The notes beneath the pieces are model-generated. The model worked only from the letters and a program-made list of their open reading frames with translations, ran no database searches and was not told the origin of the DNA. A DNA stretch of 64,000 nucleotides from Brachybacterium fresconis (GTDB lineage: Bacteria; Actinomycetota; Actinomycetes; Actinomycetales; Dermabacteraceae): assembly GCF_017876515.1 (NCBI RefSeq), contig NZ_JAGIOC010000001.1, positions 434,001 to 498,000 of the forward strand, given 5' to 3'. Positions 29,055-56,703 of the stretch are shown here, one piece after another. The translations under genes were made by a program, and so were the position numbers. The first letter of the stretch is position 1, and the number at the start of each line of letters is the position of its first letter.

Positions 29055-30881
29055 ATGTCTGAATCCGTGAAGATGCCTGCTCTCGGTGAATCCGTCACCG
29101 AGGGCACCGTCACCCGCTGGCTGAAGGCCGTCGGCGACACCGTCGAGGTCGACGAGCCGCTGCTCGAGGTCTCCACCGACAAGGTCGACACCGAGATCCC
29201 CTCGCCCGTCGCGGGCACCATCGAGAAGATCCTGGTCGAGGAGGACGAGGACGCCGATGTCGGCGCCGATCTCGTCGTCATCGGCGACGGCTCCGGCTCC
29301 GAGGGCGCCGGGTCCGACGACTCCGGGGCCGATGCCGAGGAAGCTCCGGCTGAGGAAGCGCCGGCTGAGGAAGCGCCGGCTGAGGAGGCTCCGGCGGCGG
29401 AGGCGTCCGCCCCCTCCGCCGAGGAGGCCCCCGAGAAGGAGTCCGAGCAGTCGGCGCAGTCCTCCGGCGGAGGGTCCGGCGCGGCCTCCGGCGAAGAGGT
29501 CACCATGCCGGCGCTCGGTGAGTCCGTCACCGAGGGCACTGTCACCCGCTGGCTGAAGGCTGTCGGTGAGTCGGTCGAGGTCGACGAGCCGCTGCTCGAG
29601 GTCTCCACCGACAAGGTCGACACCGAGATCCCCTCGCCCGTCGCCGGCACCGTGCTGGAGATCAGGGTCGAGGAGGACGAGGACGCCGAGGTCGGCTCCG
29701 TGCTGGCCATCGTCGGCGATTCCTCCGGCGCCCCGGCAGCGGACGAGAAGCCCGCTGCCCCGGCCCCGAAGGCCGAGGAGGAGCCCGCCGAGAAGGAGGC
29801 GCCGAAGGCCGCGGAGGAGCCCGCCGAGAAGGAGGCCCCGAAGGCCGAGGAGAAGCCCGCCGCCCCGAAGGCCCCGGAGCAGAAGACGCAGGAGCCCTCC
29901 GCTCCCGCCGCCGCCCCGGCCCCCAAGGCAGCGGATTCCGTCAGCGGTGCCGAGTCCTCCGGGTACGTCACGCCGCTGGTGCGGAAGATGGCGACCGAGG
30001 CCGGGGTCGACCTGGCCACGGTCTCCGGCACCGGCCTGGGCGGGCGCATCCGCAAGCAGGACGTGCAGCAGGCGATCGACGCCCAGAAGTCGGCGGCCTC
30101 CGCTCCCGCCGCCTCCGCCGCTCCGGCCGCTGCCGCGGCACCGGCGCAGGTCGAGGTCTCCCCGCTGCGCGGCACCGAGGAGAAGATGAGCCGCGTCCGC
30201 AAGGTCACGGCCAAGCGGATGATGGAGTCCCTGCACGGGCAGGCGCAGCTGACCACCGCGGTCGAGGTCGACATGACCCGGGTCGCGAAACTGCGCGGGA
30301 AGGCCAAGGACGCCTTCGCCCAGCGCGAGGGCGCCAAGCTCACCTTCCTGCCGTTCATCATGCAGGCGGCGATCGAGGCCCTGAAGACCTACCCGAAGGT
30401 CAATGCCTCGATCGACGAGGACCTGATCAAGTACGCCGCCTCCGAGAACATCGGCATGGCCGCGGACACCGATCGCGGTCTGGTCGTGCCGGTGATCAAG
30501 AACTCGGGTGACCTGAACCTGGCGGGCCTGGCCCGCCAGATCGGCGACCTCGGGGCGCGGGCGAAGAACAACAAGCTCACCCCGGACGATCTCCAGGGAG
30601 CGACGTTCACGATCACCAACACCGGGTCCGGCGGTGCCCTCTGGGACACCCCGATCGTGCCGAATCCCCAGGTCGGCATCCTCGGCTGCGGCACCATCGT
30701 CAAGCGTCCCGCGGTCGTGCAGAACGCCGAGGGCGATGACTCCATCGCGGTCCGCTCGATGATGTACCTGTTCCTCTCCTACGACCACCGTCTCGTCGAC
30801 GGCGGCGATGCGGCCCGCTTCCTCAGCTTCATGAAGAAGCGGCTCGAGGAGGGCGCGTTCGAGGCGGAACTGGGCCTGTGA
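29055..30881 (+). CDS. sucB: Dihydrolipoamide acyltransferase E2 (two lipoyl domains)
   Basis: 608 residues. Domain order: lipoyl domain 1 (residues ~2-76, Lys in STDKVD), an acidic Ala/Pro/Glu-rich linker, lipoyl domain 2 (~147-220) almost identical to the first, a second Lys/Pro/Ala linker, the E3/E1-binding domain ([17 protein letters not shown] ... GRIRKQDV) and the catalytic trimer domain ending with [16 protein letters not shown]. In actinobacteria this E2 serves pyruvate dehydrogenase and sometimes 2-oxoglutarate dehydrogenase. The ATG at 29055 has AGGAGG 10 nt upstream; the ATG at 29046 is too close to it. Confidence 0.95.
29142..29644 (+). repeat. Long exact duplication inside sucB (lipoyl domains)
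   Basis: A 71-bp stretch at 29142-29212 recurs without a mismatch at 29574-29644, with further high similarity on both sides. The offset is 432 bp (144 codons). It codes for the core of both lipoyl domains. Confidence 0.95.
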
Positions 30882-53884: not shown

Positions 53885-54253
53885 CGGACCAGCCGGCCTG
53901 TAAGCCGGGTTCTGTGATCGGCAGCCATCCCTCTCGGATCGCCGTTGCCGACGACCTCCAGCGGTCTACCCGGGAACTCGGGCCGGCGCCCTCGAATGTT
54001 CCCTGTCTGACCTTGCTCCCGGTGGGGTTTACCGTGCCGACCTCGTCGCCGAGGCCGCGGTGGTCTCTTACACCACCCTTTCACCCTTACCGCCGGTGCC
54101 CCGCAGGGCGTCGGCGGCGGTCTGCTCTCTGTGGCACTGTCCCGCGGATCACTCCGGGTGGGTGTTACCCACCACCGTGCCGGATGGAGCCCGGACTTTC
54201 CTCGACCCCGGAGCGTGAGCTCCGAGGACGCGACTGCCCGGCCGACTGGTCCG
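53885..54253 (-). ncRNA. rnpB: RNase P RNA, bacterial type A
   Basis: About 369 nt. P1 is formed by CGGACCAGTCGGCC at the 5' end with GGCCGGCTGGTCCG at the 3' end. The universally conserved core elements are present: GAGGAAAGTCCGGGCTCC near the 5' end, ACAGAGAGCAGACC-type P9-P11 region, GGGTGAAAGGGTGGTGTAAGAG, GGTAAACCCC and AGACAGAACCCGGCTTAC-like 3' part (here ATCACAGAACCCGGCTTACAG). It is the catalytic RNA that matures tRNA 5' ends. Ends may shift by a few bases. Confidence 0.96.
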
Positions 54254-54258
54254 TTGCC

Positions 54259-54264
54259 AGTCTA
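54259..54264 (-). promoter_or_regulatory. -10 box of rnpB
   Basis: Minus-strand TAGACT placed 5 nt before the P1 helix, at the distance expected for the RNA 5' end. Confidence 0.65.
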
Positions 54265-54366
54265 CGCCGACCAGCGGACCGGGCCGGGCCCGCCGATCGG
54301 CTCAGGAGTGCTCTGGCGTGCGGAACATCTCCCCACCTGCTGTCGGTGCGCCGGCAGGGCACGGCT

Positions 54367-54372
54367 CAGAAT
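54367..54372 (+). promoter_or_regulatory. -10 box of yaaA (leaderless)
   Basis: CAGAAT, six nt, then the GTG at 54379. Confidence 0.4.
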
Positions 54373-54378
54373 GGTCGG

Positions 54379-55158
54379 GTGCTGATCCTGCTGCCGCCCT
54401 CGGAGACCAAGACCCGCCCCGCCGACGAGGGCGCCGCTCCGCTCGAGCTCGCCTCGCTCGGCCTGCCCCAGCTGACCGAGGCGCGCGGCACTGTCCTGCG
54501 CGCCGCCCAGCGCACCGCCGCCGCGCAGAACGGCGCGGCGATGCTCGGCGTCCCCGCCTCCTCCCCGGAGCTGCTGGAGCGCATGGCGCGGATCGAGGCG
54601 GAGCCGACCGCCGGCGCCCTGGCCGTCTACTCCGGGGTGCTGTACGACCAGCTCCGCCGGGACCACTCACCCGCCGCGGATCGCCGCGTGCTGGTCCAGA
54701 GCGCCCTGTTCGGGCTCGTCGACGCCGACGTCGACCGGATCCCGGCATATCGCCTCTCCGCCGGCTCCACCCTCTCCCGCCTCGGCAAGGCGGGTTCCTG
54801 GTGGTCGCCGCGCCTGAAGCCCCTCGCCGGCGAGCTGCGCCAGGAGCAGGCGGAGTCCGGATCCCCCGTCGTCATCGACTGCCGCTCCGGCTCGTACCGT
54901 TCCATGATGACGATGCGCAGCGGCGACGGCGTGCGCGTGCTCGAGGTGTCCCCGGTCCAGGAGCGCGCCGGGGTGCGGAAGGTGATCTCGCACGACGCCA
55001 AGCGGTACCGCGGACTGGTCACCCGCGCGCTGCTGGAGGCCGAGCGGACGCCGACCTCGGCCGACGAGGCCGTCGACGTCGTCCGCACCGCTTTCGGGAC
55101 GCAGCTGCAGGTCGAGCTCGAGGGCGACCGCCTGGTCGTCGTGGACCGGGTGGGCTGA
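54379..55158 (+). CDS. yaaA: YaaA family (DUF328) peroxide-stress protein
   Basis: 259 residues from the GTG at 54379 (LILLPPSETKTRP is the typical family start). Further motifs: AVYSGVLYDQL, VLVQSALFGLVDADVDRIPAY, RLSAGSTL, VVIDCRSGSYRSMM, VRKVISHDAKRYRGLVTRAL. YaaA proteins bind DNA through a helix-hairpin-helix-like fold and lower iron-driven oxidative damage in E. coli; the activity here is inferred. A long upstream reading overlaps rnpB and is rejected. Confidence 0.92.
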   Translation: MLILLPPSETKTRPADEGAAPLELASLGLPQLTEARGTVLRAAQRTAAAQNGAAMLGVPASSPELLERMARIEAEPTAGALAVYSGVLYDQLRRDHSPAADRRVLVQSALFGLVDADVDRIPAYRLSAGSTLSRLGKAGSWWSPRLKPLAGELRQEQAESGSPVVIDCRSGSYRSMMTMRSGDGVRVLEVSPVQERAGVRKVISHDAKRYRGLVTRALLEAERTPTSADEAVDVVRTAFGTQLQVELEGDRLVVVDRVG

Positions 55159-55174
55159 GCCGTCAGGAGACCCT

Positions 55175-55398
55175 GCCCACGTGCCTGATCTCCTGCCGAC
55201 TCGTCCCTCGTCAGCACGTCGATCAGACCCCGCCCACGTGCCTGATCTCCTGCCGACTCGTCCCTCGTCAGCACGTCGATCAGGCCCTGCCCACGTGCCT
55301 GATCTCCTGCCGACTCGTCCCTCGTCAGCACGTCGATCAGGCCCTGCCCACGTGCCTGATCTCCTGCCGACTCGTCCCTCGTCAGCACGTCGATCAGG
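55175..55398. repeat. Tandem array, four copies of a 57-bp hairpin-forming unit
   Basis: Units start at 55175, 55232, 55289 and 55346; the last is 53 bp. Only two substitutions distinguish the first unit (55227, 55231) from the others. Each contains GCCTGATC and GATCAGGC as outer arms and TGCCGAC/GTCAGCA as inner arms, giving a nested stem. The array fills the gap between the converging yaaA and nif3 genes; the nif3 stop codon lies in the last unit's GATCAGG arm. As 57 is a multiple of 3 all frames stay in register; on the minus strand one frame reads LIDVLTRDESAGDQARGQG per unit. Confidence 0.97.
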
Positions 55399-56242
55399 CG
55401 GAGCGACCGCCCCACGGGTCGGTGGTGTGCGTGCTGACCAGCACCTCGAGACCGGGCACGGTCTCGGTGAGCAGGTCACGGGCCAGCGGTAGCCAGAGCG
55501 CCTCGCTGGCCGCATGCGGCACGTCGAGCAGCGCCGGCACGGCAGCCGGATCCGCGTTCGCCTCGACATGCTCGAGCGCCGGATGGTGGCGCAGGTCCGA
55601 GGTGATGTAGGCGTCCACCCCCGCGGCGGCGGCCTGCTCGAGGAAGGAATCTCCCGCCCCGGGGCACACCGCCACCCGTTCGACCTCGCGGTCGCCCGGG
55701 CCGGTGTGCAGGATGCCGCGGGCGGTGGCCGGGACGAGGTCGGCGACGACGCGGGCGAGGGCGCCGACGGTGGTCGGCTCCGGGAGCTCACCGATCGCGC
55801 CGAGGCCGAACAGGCTCGAGCCGTGGGCCCCGTCCTCGGCCTCCTGCGCCGGGATCAGCGGCTGGGCGCCGCGCAGATCCAGCGCCCGGGTCCAGGCACC
55901 GACGGTGCCGCGGGTGGAGCGGTCGACGTTCGTGTGCCCGCACCACAGGGCGACACCGGAGCGCAGCAGATGCGTGACGACCGCGCCCTTACCCTCGTCG
56001 GCCGGCAGGAAGCTGGCACCGCGCAGCAGCAGCGGATGGTGGGTGACCAGCAGCTCGGCATCGCGGCCCACGGCCTCGCGCGCCACCTCGAGGGTGGGAT
56101 CCACGGCCAGCAGCACCCGCTGGACGTCCGCCGCGCGCTCCCCCAGCACCAGACCGACCCGGTCCCAGTCCTCGGCCCAGGAGAGCGGGTAGGTCTCCTC
56201 GAGGATGCCGGTGACGGAGCCGACGCTCGTCGGCGCGCTCAT
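55394..56242 (-). CDS. NIF3 family dinuclear metal protein
   Basis: 282 residues. Metal-binding motifs: LLVTHHPLLLRG (His-His), CGHTNVDRSTRGT (His, Asp) and, near the C-terminus, DLRHHPALEH and DVPHAASEAL, where the final His/Glu ligands lie. Nif3-like proteins are often labelled GTP cyclohydrolase-like but the activity is unsettled. The ATG at 56242 overlaps the sufU stop by 4 bp, so it belongs to a sufS-sufU-nif3 operon. Its stop codon falls in the first (minus-strand) unit of the repeat array. Confidence 0.93.
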   Translation of the reverse strand: MSAPTSVGSVTGILEETYPLSWAEDWDRVGLVLGERAADVQRVLLAVDPTLEVAREAVGRDAELLVTHHPLLLRGASFLPADEGKGAVVTHLLRSGVALWCGHTNVDRSTRGTVGAWTRALDLRGAQPLIPAQEAEDGAHGSSLFGLGAIGELPEPTTVGALARVVADLVPATARGILHTGPGDREVERVAVCPGAGDSFLEQAAAAGVDAYITSDLRHHPALEHVEANADPAAVPALLDVPHAASEALWLPLARDLLTETVPGLEVLVSTHTTDPWGGRSA

Positions 56243-56703
56243 CGTCCCGCCTCCTCGCGGGCCTCGACCAGAGCGGCGCGGTAGGCCTTCCAGGGCATCA
56301 GCACGCACTTGACGCGGGCGGGGAACTTGGCGGCGCCGAGCAGCGCGACGCCGTCGCCGATCAGGTCCTCGTCCCCCTTGAGCGTGCCCCGGGAGCGCAT
56401 GGCCTCCTCGAAGTGCTCGCGGACCGGTTCGACCTCGGCGACCGTGCGGCCGATCAGGAGGTCCGCCATGATCGAGGCGGCCGCGCGGCTCATGGCGCAG
56501 CCGATCGCGTCGTAGGAGACGTCCTCGATCCGCTCGTGCTCGCTGTCCCCGGACAGCTGCAGGCGCAGGGTGATCTCGTCGCCGCAGGTGGGGTTCACGT
56601 GGTGGACCTCGGCGTCGAAGGGCTCGCGCAGCCCGGCGTGCAGGGGCCGCTTGTCGTGCTCGATGACGAGCTCGGTGTACAGGGAGTTCAGTGCGGTGCT
56701 CAT
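56239..56703 (-). CDS. sufU: SufU-type sulfur acceptor for Fe-S assembly
   Basis: 154 residues. The conserved SufU cysteines are all there: NPTCGDEI (Cys40, Asp42), DAIGCAMSRAAAS (Cys69) and ARVKCVLMPW (Cys133), plus the 18-20 residue insertion between Cys69 and Cys133 that separates SufU from IscU. Zinc-bound SufU takes persulfide sulfur from SufS. Its ATG overlaps the sufS stop by 4 bp. Confidence 0.96.
   Translation of the reverse strand: MSTALNSLYTELVIEHDKRPLHAGLREPFDAEVHHVNPTCGDEITLRLQLSGDSEHERIEDVSYDAIGCAMSRAAASIMADLLIGRTVAEVEPVREHFEEAMRSRGTLKGDEDLIGDGVALLGAAKFPARVKCVLMPWKAYRAALVEAREEAGR

Follow-up and report, generated by a model that had tools for sequence, protein, structure and literature searches.

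A tandem array of four near-identical 57-bp units lies between two converging genes, nif3 and yaaA, in the 64,000-nt stretch of the Brachybacterium fresconis genome that was analysed (positions 434,001 to 498,000 of contig NZ_JAGIOC010000001.1; hereafter the window), which raises the question of whether the array is a local feature of the nif3 3′ end or belongs to a more widespread element. TRF placed the array at 55171-55399 (period 57, 4.0 copies, 98% matches), and its score of 444 was the highest of the 29 TRF rows for the window. TRF, a covariance model and folding together confirmed the original prediction of four units with nested stems seated on the nif3 stop codon, with the stop inside the outermost unit and only two columns varying across the four units. 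The features are listed in Table 1. The flanking genes were assigned using Pfam and do converge, with DUF34/NIF3 encoded on the minus strand and YaaA on the plus strand.

On the nif3 strand, the unit is predicted to fold into an 8-bp outer stem, an internal loop and an inner stem of 7 bp, the last as first proposed. Three units match the proposed outer arms (GCCTGATC/GATCAGGC) perfectly, and the unit nearest yaaA has one arm change, its 5′ arm starting with GTC-TGATC, which gives a U-G pair in the stem. The minus strand gave the better fold (-28.2 versus -18.5 kcal/mol, z -4.3 versus -2.4), as had been claimed, which supports a structured RNA transcribed from the nif3 side. The RNase P RNA was found at 53885-54249 of the window (minus strand), antisense to the 5′ part of a long ORF upstream of yaaA, thus yaaA probably starts with the GTG at 54379.

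Table 1. Coordinates of the array, its parts and neighbours, and of two class C loci (see below) in the same genome (G000). Positions are those of the window unless a locus (L) or contig (C1) is given.
Feature	Coordinates	Strand	Remarks
Unit 1 hairpin, nearest nif3	55354..55401 (G000:C1:489354-489401)	-	R1 match, E 2.4e-11; nif3 stop codon inside 5′ arm; fold -28.2 kcal/mol
Unit 2 hairpin	55297..55344	-	R1 match, E 3.1e-11
Unit 3 hairpin	55240..55287	-	R1 match, E 3.1e-11
Unit 4 hairpin, nearest yaaA	55183..55230	-	R1 match, E 1.4e-10; fold -22.1 kcal/mol
nif3 stop codon (TGA), left border of array	55394..55396	-	Model positions 6-8
Extra TGA at right border	55163..55165	-	231 nt (4 x 57 + 3) from the nif3 stop
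nif3 (DUF34/NIF3), array on its stop	55394..56242	-	Pfam PF01784, E 1.3e-59
yaaA, converging neighbour	54379..55158	+	Pfam PF03883, E 4.1e-25
Three class C units, ATGA between two ABC permease genes	L040:1387-1554 (G000:C1 about 2228813-2228980)	+	
Class C core before LutB-like gene	L041:1491-1552 (G000:C1 about 4499916-4499977)	-	

Eight further clear loci were detected in this genome by a blastn search with the array. The covariance model R1, built from 16 units of this genome, none of them from nif3, found 22 strong units in 12 arrays, including all four nif3 units. The many dispersed copies are the outcome that the original prediction had equated with a mobile intergenic repeat. As the same hairpin recurs in many other assemblies, the array is not a product of chance, and an assembly artefact, which had been named as a possible objection, is unlikely. 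Two loci in the same genome (L037 and L038; G000:C1:3684620-3684791, plus strand) consist of tandem 91-bp units with ends as in the stop-codon class described below; they include an extra stretch within the loop that could fold independently.

A pattern scan of GTDB genomes yielded 64 stretches, 62 from Brachybacterium and two from one MAG titled Actinomycetales. At E values up to 1e-4, R1 matched at least 28 of the 38 Brachybacterium genomes, with 2 to 46 model units per carrying genome among the matches listed, and among these matches there were none in the 14 genomes from other genera of the order and, in a sample of 296 genomes of the phylum, none outside the genome analysed here. The hairpin family was missing from 10 of the 38 genus genomes among the matches listed; the nif3 genes of these 10 are 60-68% identical to that in the window, and on this basis we read the carriers as a putative single clade within the genus. 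No Rfam family overlapped the elements, either at the gathering threshold or at E values up to 1, and the plasmid search and the IMG/VR pattern search (0 matches) did not detect the hairpin. A phage collection contained four matching records (MT835570, MT837856, MT836248 and MT835529), all UNVERIFIED, unannotated 'Bacteriophage sp.' scaffolds from human faeces. ORFs were listed for MT835570 and MT837856, and we take them to resemble those of a bacterial chromosome, thus these two records may be mislabelled; the other two may be of phage origin.

The position of the hairpin relative to the upstream gene is fixed. In 61 of the 66 arrays from the pattern loci, the TGA of the upstream gene occupies model positions 6-8. 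Among the five exceptions, contig ends truncate two arrays, the frame runs through to a TAG at position 34 in two more, which come from two species and resemble each other at the gene end, and the stop is at -2 in the last. The stop position was also exact in 38 of 40 R1-match arrays from ten genomes, with the gene stop 20 nt upstream of the first full unit in the remaining two (L198 and L203). By reading, 10 of the 12 arrays in the B. fresconis genome are exact, and in L009 and L026 the gene stop, TGATC, is 22-26 nt upstream of the first full unit. Arrays of this kind are referred to here as class S. In the 64 pattern loci, CTGA occurs at 259 sense stops, 588 other intergenic positions and 2126 positions inside genes, counts that come from a crude home-made gene caller, which placed nif3 on the wrong strand, and the targeting ratio is therefore rough. 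Class S periods number 20, 35 and 38 for 0, 1 and 2 modulo 3. The frames through the nif3 array are open, as had been claimed; the suggested minus-strand peptide is unsupported, as the periods are spread over all three frames and show no frame constraint.

The stem reaches into the gene. The base two before the TGA and its partner in the 3′ arm form a Watson-Crick pair in 73 of 76 arrays, using four pair types, against a shuffled mean of 27 (0 of 2000 shuffles as high), and in 40 of 40 arrays of a second sample (shuffled 14.8). For units other than the first, the figure was 55 of 69 (shuffled 30). The base three before the TGA showed no significant pairing (52 of 76, shuffled 48.3), and the base directly before it is C in 74 of the 76 arrays. 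Among 73 distinct class S rows, in an alignment fitted to the model and so favouring the pairing figures, 95.1% of stem cells are paired and the whole stem has 84 double changes, compared with 24 when shuffled and no more than 7 in slid versions.

A second context was found using R2, a core-only model. In the B. fresconis genome, R2 detected three units at an ATGA separating two ABC permease genes and one unit ahead of a LutB-like gene (Table 1). Of 40 R2-match arrays from five genomes, 26 have the exact class S stop, 10 sit at overlapping stop and start codons (class C), and four fall outside both classes by score (L302, L306, L316 and L334). In L334 (G018:C1 about 1188213-1188299) there are two units, the gene stop is apparently TAG rather than TGA, and the stem is changed. 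In nine of the 10 class C arrays the upstream stop is at -13 or -16, the exception being L325, where it is far upstream and only the start side is present; a gene start is called 6 nt after the core in eight arrays, with none called in L329, and L330 has a decayed look. Nineteen class C units were examined, four of them without a readable border. In all 15 with both RTGA borders readable, an ORF of 18-19 codons ends in a TGA that overlaps the next start, and AGGAG, a Shine-Dalgarno (SD) sequence, is found shortly before this TGA. The core before the LutB-like gene lacks RTGA on its left side, and its AGGAG acts as the SD of that gene. The closest relative, G014, has one class C unit at what is apparently the same ABC permease junction (L323). 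For 14 of the 19 units, identical units and three others having been left out, the stems have 14 double changes compared with 6.9 when shuffled and up to 7 in slid versions; the count of pairs showing a double change was not significant in this set, and the worst pair fails in six of the 14.

The nif3 gene is present in 37 of the 38 genus genomes. Thirty loci were fetched and two were not located; the 28 that could be read comprise the array in the window and 27 without the element. In G014, whose nif3 is 90% identical, the element-free site reads TGA-GAGC-TCAGCCC, and in the window the array is followed by TGA-CGGC-TCAGCCC, the right-border TGA marking the base after which the window resumes like the empty site. 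In G022, nif3 is matched as three disjoint segments, as though the gene were disrupted or the assembly faulty.

At rplA, 27 of 30 fetched loci were readable. Arrays are present in G000 (B. fresconis), G023, G018, G049 and G020, a shortened copy in G045 and apparent remnants in G021 and G046, and the other 19 loci, that of G014 included, carry no element; in G003, outside these 27, R1 matches touch the end of rplA. G000 and G023 have a common spacer sequence at rplA, suggesting an old insertion followed by precise loss in G014, and horizontal transfer may also account for the pattern. These differences in site and in copy number are all comparisons between species.

The first TGA after the last hairpin is 11-17 nt away in 59 of 76 arrays, and the bases at -2, -4 and -7 from it match those of the gene in 47, 31 and 33 of 66 arrays (shuffled 22.9, 20.6 and 23.7). 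Matches at -3, -5, -6, -8 and -9 do not exceed the shuffles in these 66. The right border therefore has an extra copy of the stop codon and a weak locus-specific repeat, which is too short to prove a target-site duplication. In the arrays printed, spacers differ between loci and are alike within most arrays (exceptions L105 and L127), thus tandem growth was probably local.

An alternative to a mobile element is a cis-regulatory 3′-end RNA under selection, one that acts by delaying termination, by shielding the 3′ end or by protein binding and that was copied because it is useful. Selection on a useful RNA could also give the strong covariation, and unpaired positions are kept as well: in 225 units, GA..GA around the terminal pair is retained in 213, GACG in 220 and AGGA in 219, the GA..GA plausibly forming tandem G.A pairs. 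Several genes also carry the hairpin in more than one species, 18 of 50 clusters of upstream proteins having two to four members. However, the host genes seem to be functionally mixed by their putative names (six were checked by Pfam), a single species carries the array among the 28 readable nif3 orthologues, and the family is absent from 10 of the 38 genus genomes among the matches listed. This explanation is thus considered unlikely.

A stacked transcription terminator amplified from that of nif3, as had been suggested, is much less probable. Like an intrinsic terminator, the hairpin is a GC-rich stem just past a stop, here between convergent genes, but it differs in having a sequence that is conserved across unrelated genes, on whose stops the identical hairpin type is found. 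There is no U-run, and a scan of 54000-56500 returned 0 terminator-like sites; none of the 27 other readable nif3 orthologues, that of the closest relative included, carries the element. Furthermore, 21 of 72 arrays are followed, within about 155 nt, by a distinct perfect stem of 9 bp or longer, where mononucleotide shuffles predict 0, and class C units sit between coupled genes.

Movement as a REP element by a RAYT (Y1 tyrosine transposase) would fit small dispersed palindromes near gene ends, and GTAG or GCAG does occur in the 3′ strand of class S. GTAG REPs are described as often supplying a TAG stop (PMC3733652), whereas class S has TGA as its stop, at a fixed position in the stem. The tag does not lie at an unpaired end, the grouped tandem units are all head to tail (arrays having been built per strand), and Y1 (PF01797) was found in 0 of the 38 genus genomes, with the positive control detected in 5 of 14 named genomes; a REP/RAYT origin is accordingly very improbable. 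A nif3 tandem repeat of variable number without wider meaning, in keeping with the near-identical units and with a copy number that does vary between species, is refuted as a full account by the loci found elsewhere in the same genome with blastn and R1, local tandem growth remaining part of the explanation preferred here.

It is therefore probable that the array belongs to a family of small mobile RNA hairpins that is dispersed, restricted to one clade and located at TGA stops in the sense direction. On the best reading, it is a MIRU-like mobile RNA hairpin, one that restores the stop codon at its landing site and then multiplies in tandem.

MIRU repeats serve tuberculosis strain typing and follow the target rule DTGA; to our knowledge, the mode of their movement is unsolved. 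They are described as apparently mobile, with an insertion position that couples their ORF at -4 nt (PMC12548453), and as having unit lengths of 53 and 77 bp (PMC2453075, PMC4213456). Class C likewise consists of short tandem units, of 53 or 56 bp, in the sense orientation at stop/start overlaps with an internal coupled ORF: it is inserted at the RTGA overlap of co-directional genes, and its small ORF overlaps the neighbouring starts and stops. By this comparison the design of class C is shared with MIRU, as a likeness of design and not as demonstrated common descent. Class S resembles MIRU in that copy number differs between related species (four versus none at nif3; also at rplA). However, the nif3 array is on a lone CTGA stop between converging genes and not on an RTGA overlap, class S has no frame-constrained internal ORF, and, unlike in MIRU, its stem pairs the stop codon and the last codon of the gene.

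A model trained solely on Brachybacterium class C (R3) was run against 396 genomes and, at E values up to 0.01, had matches in at least nine genomes other than that of B. fresconis. Eight of the nine were judged by eye, from the sequence context, to be chance; G366 had a better E value (2e-4) than the ninth, G434, but no RTGA borders. G434 has three RTGA-bounded matches (E 9.4e-4, 3.4e-3 and 0.014), R3 itself including the RTGA and SD columns. Two of these units have the first RTGA as the stop of the upstream frame and the second as that of the unit ORF; the third (L363) has a spacing shorter by one, and its upstream frame is closed by a TAG four bases further on. Two of the three units contain a 23-mer that is used as a repeat primer for Mycobacterium intracellulare (PMC10117815), and G434 is thus called a probable mycobacterium. 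Within the literature covered, which left most subscription papers, the original MIRU paper included, outside its scope, there was no description of a class S stop-locking hairpin, and no relevant paper on a Brachybacterium hairpin or repeat was found among those listed, judging largely by title.

As a class S unit begins with a stop codon (NC-TGA-NC-GACG...), a gene receiving an actively moving copy would retain its protein and a stop, and the silence of such an insertion may be the reason for the site. The stop would then be locked in the 8-bp stem, which also includes the last two coding bases. Once in place, a unit would give rise to tandem copies, probably through slippage involving the (C)TGA on either side, and such slippage could also remove units precisely. 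Class C would lodge at ATGA and GTGA overlaps, each unit bringing its own 18-19-codon ORF and AGGAG, so that the translational coupling of the two genes would be kept. In the predicted class C rod, AGGAG would lie opposite GACGA, and the SD would be released when a ribosome that terminates at the first TGA unfolds the rod. Most likely, both classes are mobile hairpins that owe their persistence to restoring what they disrupt, namely the stop in class S and the stop, SD and start in class C.

A broader proposal, that these hairpins and the mycobacterial MIRUs form one actinobacterial class of mobile RNA that is targeted via translation termination, is speculative and rather doubtful. Such an RNA would move as or from mRNA and enter at a stop where the ribosome releases, the 3′ arm that pairs with the last codon serving as a guide or a mark. 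The number of matches per carrier (among the matches listed), the element-free genomes, the clear empty sites and the covarying structure make the genus tractable for asking how a small element finds stop codons. The class S hairpins on terminal stops would also provide a natural test of the effect of a stop-codon hairpin on translation termination.

Elsewhere in the window, a 36-bp tandem repeat of about 3 copies (87-92% matches) was found at 29762-29876; read as protein, it could give a repetitive peptide with many Glu, Lys, Pro and Ala residues.
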